A program made the translations under genes and the position numbers. DNA of 64,000 nucleotides from contig NZ_FPJE01000006.1 in NCBI RefSeq assembly GCF_900119185.1, forward strand, positions 124,001 to 188,000, given 5' to 3'. The notes beneath the pieces are model-generated. The model made no database searches. It was not told where the DNA came from and saw only the letters and a list, made by a program, of their open reading frames with translations. Position 1 is the first letter of the stretch, and every line of letters begins with the position of its first letter. Shown piece by piece: positions 53,900 through 58,273 of this stretch. This DNA is from Sinomicrobium oceani. GTDB taxonomy: Bacteria; Bacteroidota; Bacteroidia; Flavobacteriales; Flavobacteriaceae.

Positions 53900-54079
53900 C
53901 CGGGGCTGCGATACACCTGTCCTATACTTTGATGCATCAAAATATAGGACAGGCACTCAGCCACCGCTGTGTCGTTGTTGTAATACAGCGTGTCTGTACC
54001 CAAGACGGGGTAAAGGCGGCCGGGCTTCGGTACACCGTTCACTGCGTTCCGACGATGCCGAAATGTACCAAAGCCCCGG
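53900..54079. repeat. Composite inverted-repeat-bounded element, copy C (module 2 deleted)
   Basis: CCGGGGCTGCGATACA to TGTACCAAAGCCCCGG. Module 1 with the TGATGCATCA palindrome is intact; module 2 is cut short after CACTGCGTTCCG. It ends seven bases from the stop codon of the sigma-like gene at 54087. The remaining bases of the 53739-54086 gap hold no gene. Confidence 0.85.
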
Positions 54080-54086
54080 TTTTGCA

Positions 54087-54383
54087 CTAAGGCAACTCCC
54101 CCGTACCCCGTGTACGGTCTCTCAAATGCTGCATAGCCGTTTCCCGGGCCATGGCAAAAACCTCTTTGACAAACGTACCGTGTACGATGTTGCACCGTTT
54201 TAGCCATATCTTTTCAAAGACGTTCTGCACAATGTCCTGCGCGTCATCGTCATTGCAGGTATATGGCCTTACAAAAACCATAAGACGCGGGCGGAGTAGG
54301 GTAAAGACACTGTCGAAAACCGCAGCATCACCTGCCCGCAGGCTATTGATCTGGCGATAACTAATGTGGTGTTCCTTGCTCAT
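54087..54383 (-). CDS. Region-2-only ECF sigma-like small protein (second of pair)
   Basis: 98 residues. The sequence follows ECF sigma region 2: SLRAGDAAVFDSVFTLLRPR, then DDAQDIVQNVFEKIWLKR, then VKEVFAMARETAMQHLRDR, where the -10-reading and core-binding helices lie. It stops just where a linker and region 4 would follow; the DNA downstream is the repeat copy C, so region 4 may have been lost by insertion or never existed. Its start overlaps the stop of the similar gene upstream by 4 bp (ATGA). Confidence 0.7.
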   Translation of the reverse strand: MSKEHHISYRQINSLRAGDAAVFDSVFTLLRPRLMVFVRPYTCNDDDAQDIVQNVFEKIWLKRCNIVHGTFVKEVFAMARETAMQHLRDRTRGTGELP

Positions 54384-54676
54384 CGCAGGGCATCTTCCGG
54401 GTTTTCAAAAAACTGTAGGGTAACCTTGTAGGTCACCGCATGTATAGTATTTTCGAAGGTGTCGTATTCGAGGTGTTGGCGGTTCATCCACAGGCGTATA
54501 AAGATTTCCTGTATAATTCTGGTGGTTTCCTCCTCGTCGGTGCTATGGGCCGTTACATACCAGTCTATCTTTTGGGCCAGTAGTTTCAGGGCATCGTGGA
54601 ATCCTTCCAGTTGTTCGGCCTTAAACAACTGGTATAGTTTACGGTTGAGTATATGTCTCTGCATCGGGTTGTACAT
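54380..54676 (-). CDS. Region-2-only ECF sigma-like small protein (first of pair)
   Basis: 98 residues (or 94 from the ATG five codons in). It is a second region-2-like protein: KLYQLFKAEQLEGFHDALKL, EEETTRIIQEIFIRLWMNRQ, FENTIHAVTYKVTLQFF. As in its downstream neighbour there is no region 4. The two differ strongly in sequence, so they are not a recent duplication. Coupled translation suggests they act together; function unknown. Confidence 0.68.
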   Translation of the reverse strand: MYNPMQRHILNRKLYQLFKAEQLEGFHDALKLLAQKIDWYVTAHSTDEEETTRIIQEIFIRLWMNRQHLEYDTFENTIHAVTYKVTLQFFENPEDALR

Positions 54677-54776: not shown

Positions 54777-54811
54777 TTACCGTTATGCCGTGGTCAAAGG
54801 CATAACGGTAA
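54777..54811. promoter_or_regulatory. Perfect 13-bp inverted repeat upstream of the sigma-like pair
   Basis: TTACCGTTATGCC (54777-54789) and GGCATAACGGTAA (54799-54811) flank a 9-base spacer. It lies about 100 bp upstream of the minus-strand start at 54676 and its right end merges with the first base of RNA-like repeat copy 1. No T-run follows on either strand, so an operator or part of a folded RNA is more likely than a terminator. Confidence 0.5.
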
Positions 54812-55072
54812 CAAAAAGGGCCTTGTCAGTGCAAGACTTCTATAAAGCATACTATTTACTTAAAAACAGGAAGAGTTACCGGAAACAAAATAGGCGTGGA
54901 ACTCGACTTACCGATTTGAGGTACTGGCATACCTTACCATGATAAGTGAGCCCACGCCCGGGTCGTGAGCTATAATCACTTATGTCTCATGGTAACGAAA
55001 AGTGCCAGTTTTCAAATCGAGACTTTAAGCGAATAGCTTCTAATATTTTCTTTTAGAAGAGTCGCAAATATA
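54808..55072 (+). ncRNA. Structured direct repeat, copy 1 (candidate ncRNA or mobile-end structure)
   Basis: Copy 1 of a ~265-nt direct repeat. Nested helices: ACTGGCA (54923-54929) with TGCCAGT (55003-55009); TTACCATGATAAGTGA (54934-54949) with TCACTTAT (54976-54983) plus TCATGGTAA (54987-54995), a long helix with a 3-nt bulge. GGCGTGG (54893-54899) can pair with CCACGCC in the apical loop (54952-54958), giving a pseudoknot. CTTCTAA/TTAGAAG (55036-55058) makes a last hairpin. A small XRE gene follows 149 bp later. Strand is inferred from that gene. Confidence 0.6.
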
Positions 55073-55220
55073 TTTTATTTGAATGATATAAAATAACTTG
55101 TTTAGTTGGATAGCTAAAATTTAGGTTATAAAACATCAATACATATCAAATGTACTTCTATTTTCTTTAAAACACAAATATGTGTCTGTTTATTTTTTGT
55201 AAATAGGGCATATTTATGAT

Positions 55221-55445
55221 ATGGAGGATAATGAAGGAATAACAATTTTAAGAATTATAGGCAAGAAGGTTAAGACTTTCAGAGAAATGAAAAATATGTC
55301 TCAACATGATTTATCCGTAGAAGCCGATATTCCCAAAAATCAAGTAGGACGAATCGAAAGGGCGGAAATAAATACATCTATTCTAACACTTTTTAAGATA
55401 GCTAAGGCATTAGAAGTTGATATAAATAAAATTATAGGGGAGTAA
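55221..55445 (+). CDS. Small XRE-type HTH regulator 1
   Basis: 74 residues, nearly all HTH_3 domain: IIGKKVKTFREMKNMSQHDL, SVEADIPKNQVGRIERAEIN, TSILTLFKIAKALEVDINKI. Very AT-rich compared with the genes outside 55-56.5 kb. No toxin, antitoxin partner or phage gene adjoins. Its stop codon TAA (55443-55445) is the first element of structured repeat copy 2, so gene and repeat abut exactly. Confidence 0.88.
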   Translation: MEDNEGITILRIIGKKVKTFREMKNMSQHDLSVEADIPKNQVGRIERAEINTSILTLFKIAKALEVDINKIIGE

Positions 55446-55712
55446 CCAAAAAGGGCCTTGTCAGTACAAGACTTCTATAAAGCACACTACTTACTTAAAA
55501 AACAGGAAGAGTTACCGGAAACAAAATAGGCGTGGAACTCGACTTACCACATAAGAGGTGCTGGCATACCGTGCAATGATAAGTGAGCCCACGCCCGGGT
55601 CGTGAGCTATAATCACTTATAATCTCATTGCTGTGAAAAGTGCCAGTTTTCAAATCGAGATTTTAAGCGAATAGCTTCTAATATTTTCTTTTAGAAGAGT
55701 CGCGAATATATT
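55443..55712 (+). ncRNA. Structured direct repeat, copy 2 (candidate ncRNA or mobile-end structure)
   Basis: Copy 2 of the same ~265-nt repeat, about 90% identical by eye. The long helix is kept by compensatory change: GCAATGATAAGTGA (55573-55586) pairs with TCACTTAT (55613-55620) and TCATTGC (55625-55631), where copy 1 has TTACCATGA/TCATGGTAA. GCTGGCA pairs with TGCCAGT using one G-T. GGCGTGG and CCACGCC of the pseudoknot are unchanged. XRE gene 2 starts 118 bp later. Confidence 0.6.
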
Positions 55713-55829: not shown

Positions 55830-56072
55830 ATGAAAGAACAAATGAAGAGAAACTTAATAATCTTTGGACAGTTTGTTCGTAAACTTAGGAAACAATCCAA
55901 GTTAAGTCAAGATGATGTTGTTAGTAATAGCAATAAGTTAACAAAAGCTACTATTAGTGATATCGAAAATGGGAAAAGGAATCTCTCTTTCACTACTTTG
56001 TTAGATTTAGCCAAAGGAATGAAGAAACAACCTAAGGATCTGTTAGATACTTATTTTGATTTAAATGGGTAA
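55830..56072 (+). CDS. Small XRE-type HTH regulator 2
   Basis: 80 residues, HTH_3 domain: IIFGQFVRKLRKQSKLSQDD, NKLTKATISDIENGKRNLSF, TTLLDLAKGMKKQPKDLLDT. It differs clearly from regulator 1, although the RNA-like repeat before it is nearly the same as that before regulator 1. AT-rich. No partner gene. Confidence 0.87.
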   Translation: MKEQMKRNLIIFGQFVRKLRKQSKLSQDDVVSNSNKLTKATISDIENGKRNLSFTTLLDLAKGMKKQPKDLLDTYFDLNG

Positions 56073-56199: not shown

Positions 56200-56448
56200 A
56201 TGGAATATAAAGCTGCAATATACGCCTATATAGAAAAGTTATGGAAGGAGTCTAAAATGTCTAAAAGACAATTTGCCTTAAAGTATAATATTGATGAGAG
56301 AACGTTAAGAGACATCCTTAATAACAATAGTACTTATCAAATTTCTTTACCAACGATCTATCGTATTTGTGAAGTTAGGAATATTATGGTTTCGGAGTTT
56401 TTTTCTGCTGTAGAGGATGAATTTCCTGAGGTAAAGATGAAGAAATAA
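56200..56448 (+). CDS. Small HTH protein 3
   Basis: 82 residues. AIYAYIEKLWKESKMSKRQF, ALKYNIDERTLRDILNNNST and SLPTIYRICEVRNIMVSEFF form a HTH of XRE-like layout, followed by an acidic/basic tail. It resembles transcription regulators found beside mobile elements in Bacteroidota. AT-rich like its two neighbours, but not preceded by the structured repeat. Confidence 0.82.
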   Translation: MEYKAAIYAYIEKLWKESKMSKRQFALKYNIDERTLRDILNNNSTYQISLPTIYRICEVRNIMVSEFFSAVEDEFPEVKMKK

Positions 56449-56480: not shown

Positions 56481-56731
56481 CCGGGGCTTCGGTACACCTG
56501 TCTTATATTTTGATGCATCAAAATATAGGACAGGCACTCAGCCACCGCTGTGTCGTTGTTGTAATAAAGCTTGTCTATACCCAAGACGGGGCAAAGGCGG
56601 CCGGGCTTCGGTACACCATTCACTGCGTTCCGGAACTCAGCCCGCTTTGTTGAGTTCTTTTAAGTTAAATGACAACGACGGGGTAAAGGTGGCTGCGTGT
56701 TTCGGCTACGTTGGAATGTACCGAAGCCCCG
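56481..56731. repeat. Composite inverted-repeat-bounded element, copy D (full form)
   Basis: CCGGGGCTTCGGTACA to TGTACCGAAGCCCCG. Both modules are present, more diverged than in copy B. It begins 32 bases after the stop codon of HTH gene 3 and is followed by GAGGTTTTTT. Apart from it the 56449-56961 gap shows no gene. Confidence 0.88.
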
Positions 56732-57850: not shown

Positions 57851-58273
57851 ATGCTCCGTATGCCATACCTGCAGGCCGGGAGTTTTGTACATCTACTCCC
57901 ATACCTTATATCCGTAGCCATTTTCATGGCTTTTCTTTCTTTAGATCATAGTTTCGTGCCTGGTTCCGATATTCTTGCTCCTGTGCGGAATATTGTAGGG
58001 CCTGCGTCCGATATTCTTGCTCCTGCGTGGAATATTGTAGGGGCTGCGTCCAATATTCTTGCTCCTGCGTGGAATATTGTAGGGCCTGTGTCCGATATTC
58101 TTGCTCCTGCGTGGAATATTGTAGGGGCTGCGTCCGATATTCTTGCTCCTGTGTGGAATATTGTAGGGGCTGCGTCCGATATTCTTGCTCCTGTGTGGAG
58201 TATTGTAGGGCCTGTGTGCACTATGCTTGTGCCTGTAGCGGTGCGGACACCATTTTTACAGGTTTCCGGATAA
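57851..58273 (+). CDS. Doubtful frame through the 42-bp minisatellite
   Basis: 140 residues. After a hydrophobic N-terminal stretch (LLPYLISVAIFMAFLSL) come six 14-residue units of the type SDILAPVWNIVGAA. The frame could encode a repetitive membrane or surface peptide, but two other frames across the repeat are also open simply because the unit is a multiple of three. No ribosome-binding or promoter signal was seen. Treat as low-confidence. Confidence 0.25.
   Translation: MLRMPYLQAGSFVHLLPYLISVAIFMAFLSLDHSFVPGSDILAPVRNIVGPASDILAPAWNIVGAASNILAPAWNIVGPVSDILAPAWNIVGAASDILAPVWNIVGAASDILAPVWSIVGPVCTMLVPVAVRTPFLQVSG
57965..58216. repeat. Tandem minisatellite, six units of 42 bp
   Basis: Units start at 57965, 58007, 58049, 58091, 58133 and 58175; each begins TCCGATATTCTTGCTCCTG or a one- to three-base variant, followed by TGGAATATTGTAGGG. 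A degenerate seventh unit follows to about 58240. The 57700-58303 gap contains little else. Confidence 0.95.

Follow-up and report, generated by a model that had tools for sequence, protein, structure and literature searches.

The repeated element that accompanies small XRE-type genes in Sinomicrobium oceani represents a real RNA family, which lies on the strand opposite to that of the first reading and is strongly and unexpectedly tied to RNA-guided transcription; the mechanism laid out further below is a proposal. The interest of this family lies in the combination of strong covariation with a consistent gene context in an RNA that no Rfam 15 model matched. The evidence comes from two copies located in the window, i.e., the whole stretch of 64,000 nucleotides that was analyzed, and from their relatives in other genomes.

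A direct-repeat search of the window recovered two units of ~265 nt each, located at 54812–55075 (copy 1) and 55447–55712 (copy 2), which are 92% identical with a spacing of 635–638 and are both placed on the minus strand, for copy 1 from the G·U/A·C asymmetry presented below. This confirms the pair of direct copies 635 bp apart that the first-pass annotation had described, as well as its placement of the start of copy 2 at the stop codon of the first HTH gene, since copy 2 begins 2 nt past the stop of XRE gene 1. With three further copies elsewhere, the genome holds five in total. The nested helices and the GGCGTGG/CCACGCC pseudoknot claimed earlier are likewise present. In the plus-strand letters of copy 1, ACTGGCA (54923–54929) faces TGCCAGT (55003–55009) and TTACCATGA (54934–54942) faces TCATGGTAA (54987–54995), and GCAATGA/TCATTGC is present in copy 2; the P2 helix, formed by 54912–54919 with 55012–55019 in copy 1, is disrupted in the second copy. 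Read on the minus strand of copy 1, the pseudoknot 5′ strand GGCGTGG occupies 54952–54958 and the 3′ strand CCACGCC 54893–54899, the latter followed by TATTTTGTTT at 54883–54892, and an apical hairpin, GCTCACG..CGTGGGC (54964–54970 with 54950–54956), overlaps the pseudoknot 5′ strand. Folding of copy 1 gave z = −4.75 for 208 nt of the plus strand, with 0/200 shuffles as stable, and z = −3.43 for 106 nt of the minus strand; the same minus-strand folding of two relatives gave z = −5.98 and z = −1.33, the latter with 21/200 shuffles as stable.

Scanning the window against Rfam 15, a check that had been advised with Bacteroidota motifs in mind, returned no family match, and at E ≤ 5 on 1071 nt a sub-threshold snoRNA model was the sole hit, with nothing relevant. 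An integron attC site was considered at first and dropped. A search model built from six copies (R1) gave 50 matches in 85 sources, and a genome pattern scan produced at least 115 stretches; R1 matched 59 of the 115 stretches listed (44/80 and 15/35), and many of the pattern stretches without an R1 match belong to high-GC genera and look like chance. Within the family of the window's host, R1 detected the element in 70 of 397 genomes, with 123 matches in all (E ≤ 0.001) and several copies in some genomes, so that the proposed model search of other flavobacteria did find the element there. Across a phylum sample it was detected in 38 of 395 genomes (E ≤ 1e-6), the two samples having a few genomes in common. 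The analyses below use 86 loci, composed of 80 regions chosen from the 123 matches, the five copies of the genome itself and one plasmid copy; as the regions L160 and L173 overlap, 88 matches are shown for these 86 loci. The plasmid copy (L009) is the one distant match obtained among plasmids, in Rhizosphaericola mali; no XRE gene was annotated or called downstream of it, and its neighbors are iteron-like repeats and a gene for replication initiation (L009:6000-6700). A literature search, which did not reach the dCas12f-sigmaE papers, found no account of this RNA among the entries listed. An sRNA of Flavobacterium psychrophilum that PMC9723704 names Rfp18 might be the same RNA.

For the covariation analysis, a minus-strand alignment of 70 sequences was obtained from the 86 loci after the exclusion of 14 with undetected ends, the merging of one duplicate and the omission of L220. 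The structure including the pseudoknot pairs 90.3% of the cells in this alignment, with both-sided changes at 20 of 34 pairs and a double change in 204 cells, counts that kinship among the 70 sequences inflates and in which cells are not independent events. The two pseudoknot strands covary as well. None of 500 shuffles reached any of the covariation measures, and pairing fell to 30–42% when the columns were slid by 1–3. P2 was the weakest helix, with 74.6% of its cells paired, partly through MAFFT misplacement. The earlier argument, drawn from compensating changes between the two copies, that the paired form is kept is thus upheld by covariation across 70 homologues that none of the 500 shuffles equaled, and further homologues with covariation, the lack of which had been named as evidence against the structure, were found. 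Together, these patterns of change indicate that the repeat encodes a conserved, pseudoknotted, folded RNA.

The strand of this RNA was called from the pseudoknot and the apical hairpin, with P2 set aside. Departures from Watson–Crick pairing in the pseudoknot comprised 40 G·U versus 1 A·C when read on the minus strand (46:3 in another count), and in the apical hairpin 64 G·U versus 3 A·C (72:0 in another count). For P2 the counts conflict, one giving 28:17 in favor of the minus strand and the MAFFT columns giving 29 G·U to 52 A·C with 87 other. As the changed pairs that read A·C on the plus strand are G·U on the minus strand, the RNA runs on the minus strand, and it is consequently divergent from the XRE gene at its right. 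The ends of the element point in the same direction. The motif TAnnTTTGC, directed inward on the minus strand, was found in 76 of 86 loci within a 105-nt window at the right end of the element, versus 0 of 86 control windows; TAnnTTTG is the −7 box of Bacteroidota according to PMC7366714. In copy 1 this sigma-ABfr-type box, TATATTTGC, lies at 55064–55072 on the minus strand, at the 5′ end of the RNA, and copy 2 carries it with one mismatch (TATATTCGC, 55702–55710, minus strand). At the opposite end, 65 of 80 loci have a TTTT run no more than 9 nt past the last pseudoknot strand, versus 3 of 80 in a control stretch 26–34 nt further on, a count that covers 80 of the 86 loci and misses six. All three lines of evidence, read from sequence, point to a minus-strand RNA that has a −7 box at its 5′ end and a T-run directly after its final pseudoknot strand.

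This orientation reverses the first-pass annotation, in which the RNA led into the XRE gene. A plus-strand RNA that serves the XRE gene as leader or regulator would account for the near-fixed spacing to the XRE-side ORF, whose start lies at a median of 89 nt from the element and within 80–125 nt in 73 of 83 loci; it is contradicted by the wobble asymmetry, the −7 box and the T-run, all of which belong to the minus strand, and we find it hardly credible. The suggestion of a cis-acting leader for that gene falls with it, given that the RNA points in the other direction (40:1, 64:3). The same asymmetry bears on whether the inverted repeats are DNA features, such as an operator, a recombination site or a cruciform site, whose RNA-like appearance is incidental. 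That the core of the element is matched by dCas12f guides (see below), and that similar hairpins in opposite orientation were seen by eye at both ends, would suit such a site, but a strand-specific wobble asymmetry is not expected from double-stranded DNA and the covarying pseudoknot strands also speak against it, leaving this explanation improbable.

On the side of the −7 box, each copy in the window is followed by a different regulator. XRE gene 1 (55221–55445, plus strand, 74 aa; PF01381 HTH_3, E 2.6e-12) is divergent from RNA copy 1, and XRE gene 2 (55830–56072, plus strand, 80 aa; PF12844 HTH_19, E 2e-10) is divergent from RNA copy 2. A third XRE-type gene (56200–56448, plus strand, 82 aa; PF13443 HTH_26, E 5.8e-7) has no RNA copy before it and is possibly the remnant of an older cassette. 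The three copies elsewhere in the genome are each followed by a different small ORF, of which one matches HTH_3 below the cut-off (L004), one has a weak, unrelated Pfam match (L005) and one has no Pfam match (L003). Among the 86 loci, 83 have a plus-strand ORF whose start is no more than 320 nt from the element, the exceptions being L009, L223, and L230. At E ≤ 0.01, 54 of these 83 proteins match HTH_3 and 48 match HTH_26, and some, including the first, have no Pfam match. Within-genome means in six genomes gave an identity of 0.81–0.83 for the elements versus 0.33–0.38 for the XRE proteins; in G094, two loci with identical elements have XRE proteins that are 0.98 alike. A further 20 loci, taken from other genomes as a second set, included 17 with an ORF similar to the XRE proteins. 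By these comparisons, the XRE-type gene varies but keeps a nearly constant distance from the element, and the recurrence of that gene in both sets agrees with the earlier view of RNA plus regulator as a modular cassette.

The exchange of regulators invites the question of mobility. The alignment of loci L006 and L007, at 95%, extends 34 nt beyond the element and is then interrupted by an XRE gene that differs between the two, after which it resumes. This swap with preserved flanks, the several copies in some genomes, the hairpin-like inverted ends seen by eye and the genes past some XRE genes that look integrase-, relaxase- or transposase-like (by eye, among those listed) would all suit the end of a transposon or of a cassette-type mobile element, the structured mobile-element end of the first-pass annotation. 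The flanks are, however, non-random, with an XRE-type gene on one side and mostly SusC or sigma on the other; gene types recur on both flanks, and insertion into unrelated flanks was not encountered. Moreover, 50,697 phage records contained no match, and of seven viral contigs with the 20-mer pattern none was an element by the model. We therefore consider a mobile-element end very unlikely. Past the XRE gene, loci L065, L068, L084, L089, L214, L225, and L233 carry genes that look by eye like anti-phage defense, which we take to be of the methylase, Shedu-like, CBASS-like nucleotidyltransferase, Qat-like operon and Dnd-like types.

Among ORFs of ≥100 aa, the one closest to the RNA on its 3′ side has the same direction as the RNA in 83 of 86 loci, versus a ratio of 51:33 past the XRE gene, which places the operon of these 83 loci downstream of the RNA and on its strand. 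The remaining three loci are the two copies in the window and L220, where a plus-strand ORF was called first; in the window this is a spurious-looking 128-aa ORF that overlaps sigma-like ORFs. Copy 1 is then followed by two minus-strand ORFs of 98 aa each. The first (54380–54676) is weakly sigma-like, with NCBIfam sigma models at E 0.0006–0.001, far below the cut-offs, no Pfam match and a 17-residue match to the sigma of L158; the second (54087–54383) resembles sigma-70 region 2 alone, with PF04542 at E 6.9e-5, just below the cut-off, and TIGR02985 at E 1e-8, also below the cut-off. Copy 2 has the antisense XRE gene 1 instead of an operon on its 3′ side. Sorted by class, the 3′ sides of the 86 loci hold SusC in 44, mostly with SusD; dCas12f in 17, with a sigma ORF called in 16; a 110-aa family in 11; F29 or F13 in seven (with a HEPN match in the one tested); a sigma-FecR-SusC type in three; and others in four, including the two copies in the window. 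In the second set of 20, the first gene on the 3′ side was SusC in 12, sigma plus dCas12f in two and sigma-FecR-SusC in one (15 in total). By these gene calls, the RNA of the relatives is co-directional with the operon. Two of the small families had no Pfam or NCBIfam match in the members tested, namely F6 (79–122 aa as called, 11 loci; L174:9378-9713) and F29 (103–144 aa as called, three loci; L163:4495-4809).

The relation of the RNA to this operon depends on how its transcript ends. Under a strict scan that reached 160 nt from the pseudoknot strand, just 5 of 85 loci showed a conventional terminator hairpin, so that termination would need the pseudoknot plus the T-run, an unusual terminator. 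With a looser scan, terminator-like hairpins appeared at the 3′ ends of both window copies, followed by CCTTTTTGTT in copy 1 (54820–54837, minus strand) and by CCTTTTTGGT in copy 2 (55455–55472, minus strand); this region holds four such sites versus a shuffled mean of 0.7, and the stricter scan recovered the 3′ hairpin of neither copy. These ordinary terminators of the window fit a free RNA as well as they fit a leader. A free-standing, trans-acting small RNA with its own promoter and terminator, next to a co-directional gene with a promoter of its own, is accordingly an alternative to which we assign an appreciable, though minority, probability. It would be in keeping with the hairpins of the window copies and of three of seven F13-class loci, which have a terminator-like hairpin at the 3′ end of the element, with element-to-SusC gaps of 180 to 1336 nt that leave room for a separate promoter, and with the lack of an operon on the 3′ side of copy 2. 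On such a model, however, one would not expect the neighboring gene to be co-directional in 83 of 86 loci, and 80 of the 85 loci scanned strictly have no ordinary terminator.

One class of 3′ neighbors connects the element to RNA-guided transcription. The F5 proteins correspond to the "Nuclease-deactivated Cas12f" of PDB 9n9c/9n9q (E 3.1e-194), and F4, the neighbor of dCas12f, corresponds to the RpoE chain of PDB 9n9q (E 2.9e-108); the system of PDB 9n9c, 9n9m, 9n9o, and 9n9q is reportedly presented under the title "Exapted CRISPR-Cas12f homologs drive RNA-guided transcription". The gRNA scaffold, GGGTGCTTGTACACCC..CATATACAAC, lies directly 3′ of dCas12f in 17 of 17 loci examined and is a different RNA from the element; the idea that the element is dCas12f's own guide RNA was dropped, as the true guide RNA sits 3′ of dCas12f. 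Three loci (L214, L198, and L199) have two or more tandem dCas12f guide RNAs with different guides behind one dCas12f gene, and some of these guides have no match to the element. A 16-nt scaffold pattern occurred in 18 of 397 genomes, all of which carry dCas12f, and was absent from the genome of the window. dCas12f itself was detected in 19 of the 397 family genomes (E ≤ 1e-30), and the element is present in 18 of these 19 versus 70 of 397 overall (Fisher p 6e-14, with kinship ignored).

The guides of these relatives match the element itself. The dCas12f TAM is a 5′ G, and the commonest guide, GCGTGGGCTCTCTTAT, equals the core of the element on the minus strand with a G before it, matching 59 of 70 elements at 14 or more of 16 positions. 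In the window this core, GCGTGGGCTCACTTAT preceded by G, lies at 54942–54957 in copy 1, and the same core lies at 55579–55594 in copy 2, both on the minus strand; the genome of the window has it solely in the five elements. A comparison of guides over 2.5–85 kb per genome, covering 17 genomes with a readable guide, gave the element as best match, at 14–16 of 16 nt, in 10 of them (G063, G094, G125, G134, G162, G254, G257, G266, G322, and G370), versus mostly 10–13 of 16 for best matches elsewhere. No guide clearly best-matched the element within the 2.5–85 kb searched in each of six genomes (G031, G100, G144, G309, G329, and G380), and the seventh, G378, had no element among the sequences compared; G094 and G257 each carry, besides the matching guide, one without such a match. 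The dCas12f guides of relatives thus match the element core next to a 5′ G, and the core would be a natural address for RNA-guided transcription in those genomes. The element is also common without the protein, dCas12f being absent from 52 of 70 element-bearing family genomes and from 30 of 34 other element genomes tested, so the RNA-guided part cannot be the general function. In the genome of the window no dCas12f homolog was found at E ≤ 0.1, and the RNA there accordingly has another role. This distribution indicates that the element predates its use as a dCas12f address or extends beyond it. Viewed from the side of the guides, their targets in many native genomes would be a conserved site in a structured RNA gene that exists independently of dCas12f.

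The function that we place just on the probable side for the ~200–250-nt minus-strand RNA is that of an XRE-controlled leader or attenuator reading into the operon on the other side. The local XRE protein would control the shared promoter region, each copy having its own XRE regulator. A full-length transcript would close GGCGUGG with CCACGCC-UUUU and would then undergo attenuation or yield a short free RNA; alternatively, GGCGUGG could pair in the apical hairpin, which would create a switch between read-through and attenuation. The operons entered would be SusCD, sigmaE-dCas12f, sigma-FecR-SusC, small unknown families and, for copy 1, the sigma-like mini-ORFs. Copy 2 runs antisense towards XRE gene 1 and is not directly accommodated by the leader reading. 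Initiation by dCas12f-sigmaE would begin downstream of its target. Since the distance from the core to GGTATACC is 24–27 nt in 77 of 82 loci, RNA-guided initiation could start past GGCGUGG, giving a transcript without this strand that would escape attenuation, and where dCas12f-sigmaE is present one guide could address several elements. The full scenario, in which a module found throughout Bacteroidota places a rapidly swapped local XRE gene and a pseudoknot attenuator before surface-uptake or sigma operons and a single dCas12f-sigmaE guide evolved against the core, the most conserved part of the RNA gene, is more speculative, and we regard it as rather doubtful. If it held, a single guide could turn on several operons, with transcription starting inside the leader and past the attenuation strand. 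The family makes it possible to test how one promoter region before SusCD could serve divergent XRE regulators together with an attenuator and an RNA-guided activator.

Compared with known systems, the element resembles several in part. It shares with dCas12f-sigmaE the position before dCas12f in the 17 loci above (16 with a sigma ORF called) and the guide matches beside a 5′ G, but it is neither guide RNA nor effector, it adds a fold and an XRE partner of its own, and it occurs in many genomes without dCas12f, including that of the window, which contains no dCas12f-sigma pair. It likewise differs from type V guide RNAs and omega RNAs in having no dCas12f gRNA scaffold. Like attenuators and riboswitch-type leaders, which are structured 5′ RNAs that precede an operon, contain alternative pairings that exclude each other and have T's after the terminal strand, it would combine all of these features; unlike them, its terminal pairing is a long-range pseudoknot and it is accompanied by a divergent, highly variable XRE gene, and we know of no ligand for this RNA. 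The DonS-type small RNAs of PULs in Bacteroides also lie beside susC-like genes and are cis-encoded and antisense to susC, whereas in the SusC loci the element RNA and SusC share a strand. Small XRE regulators also head variable gene sets as C proteins of R–M systems and in CBASS-type control, whereas here they are coupled to a conserved divergent RNA.

The surroundings of this region contain further repeats. GC-rich intergenic repeats with GGGCTTCGGTACACC and the inverted TGTACCGAAGCCC occur at 54000–54051, 56481–56498, 56581–56632, and 56677–56731, flanking the XRE/RNA region on both sides, and the ORFs called across them look spurious. A 42-bp tandem repeat of 6.1 copies with 93% matches lies at 57958–58214.
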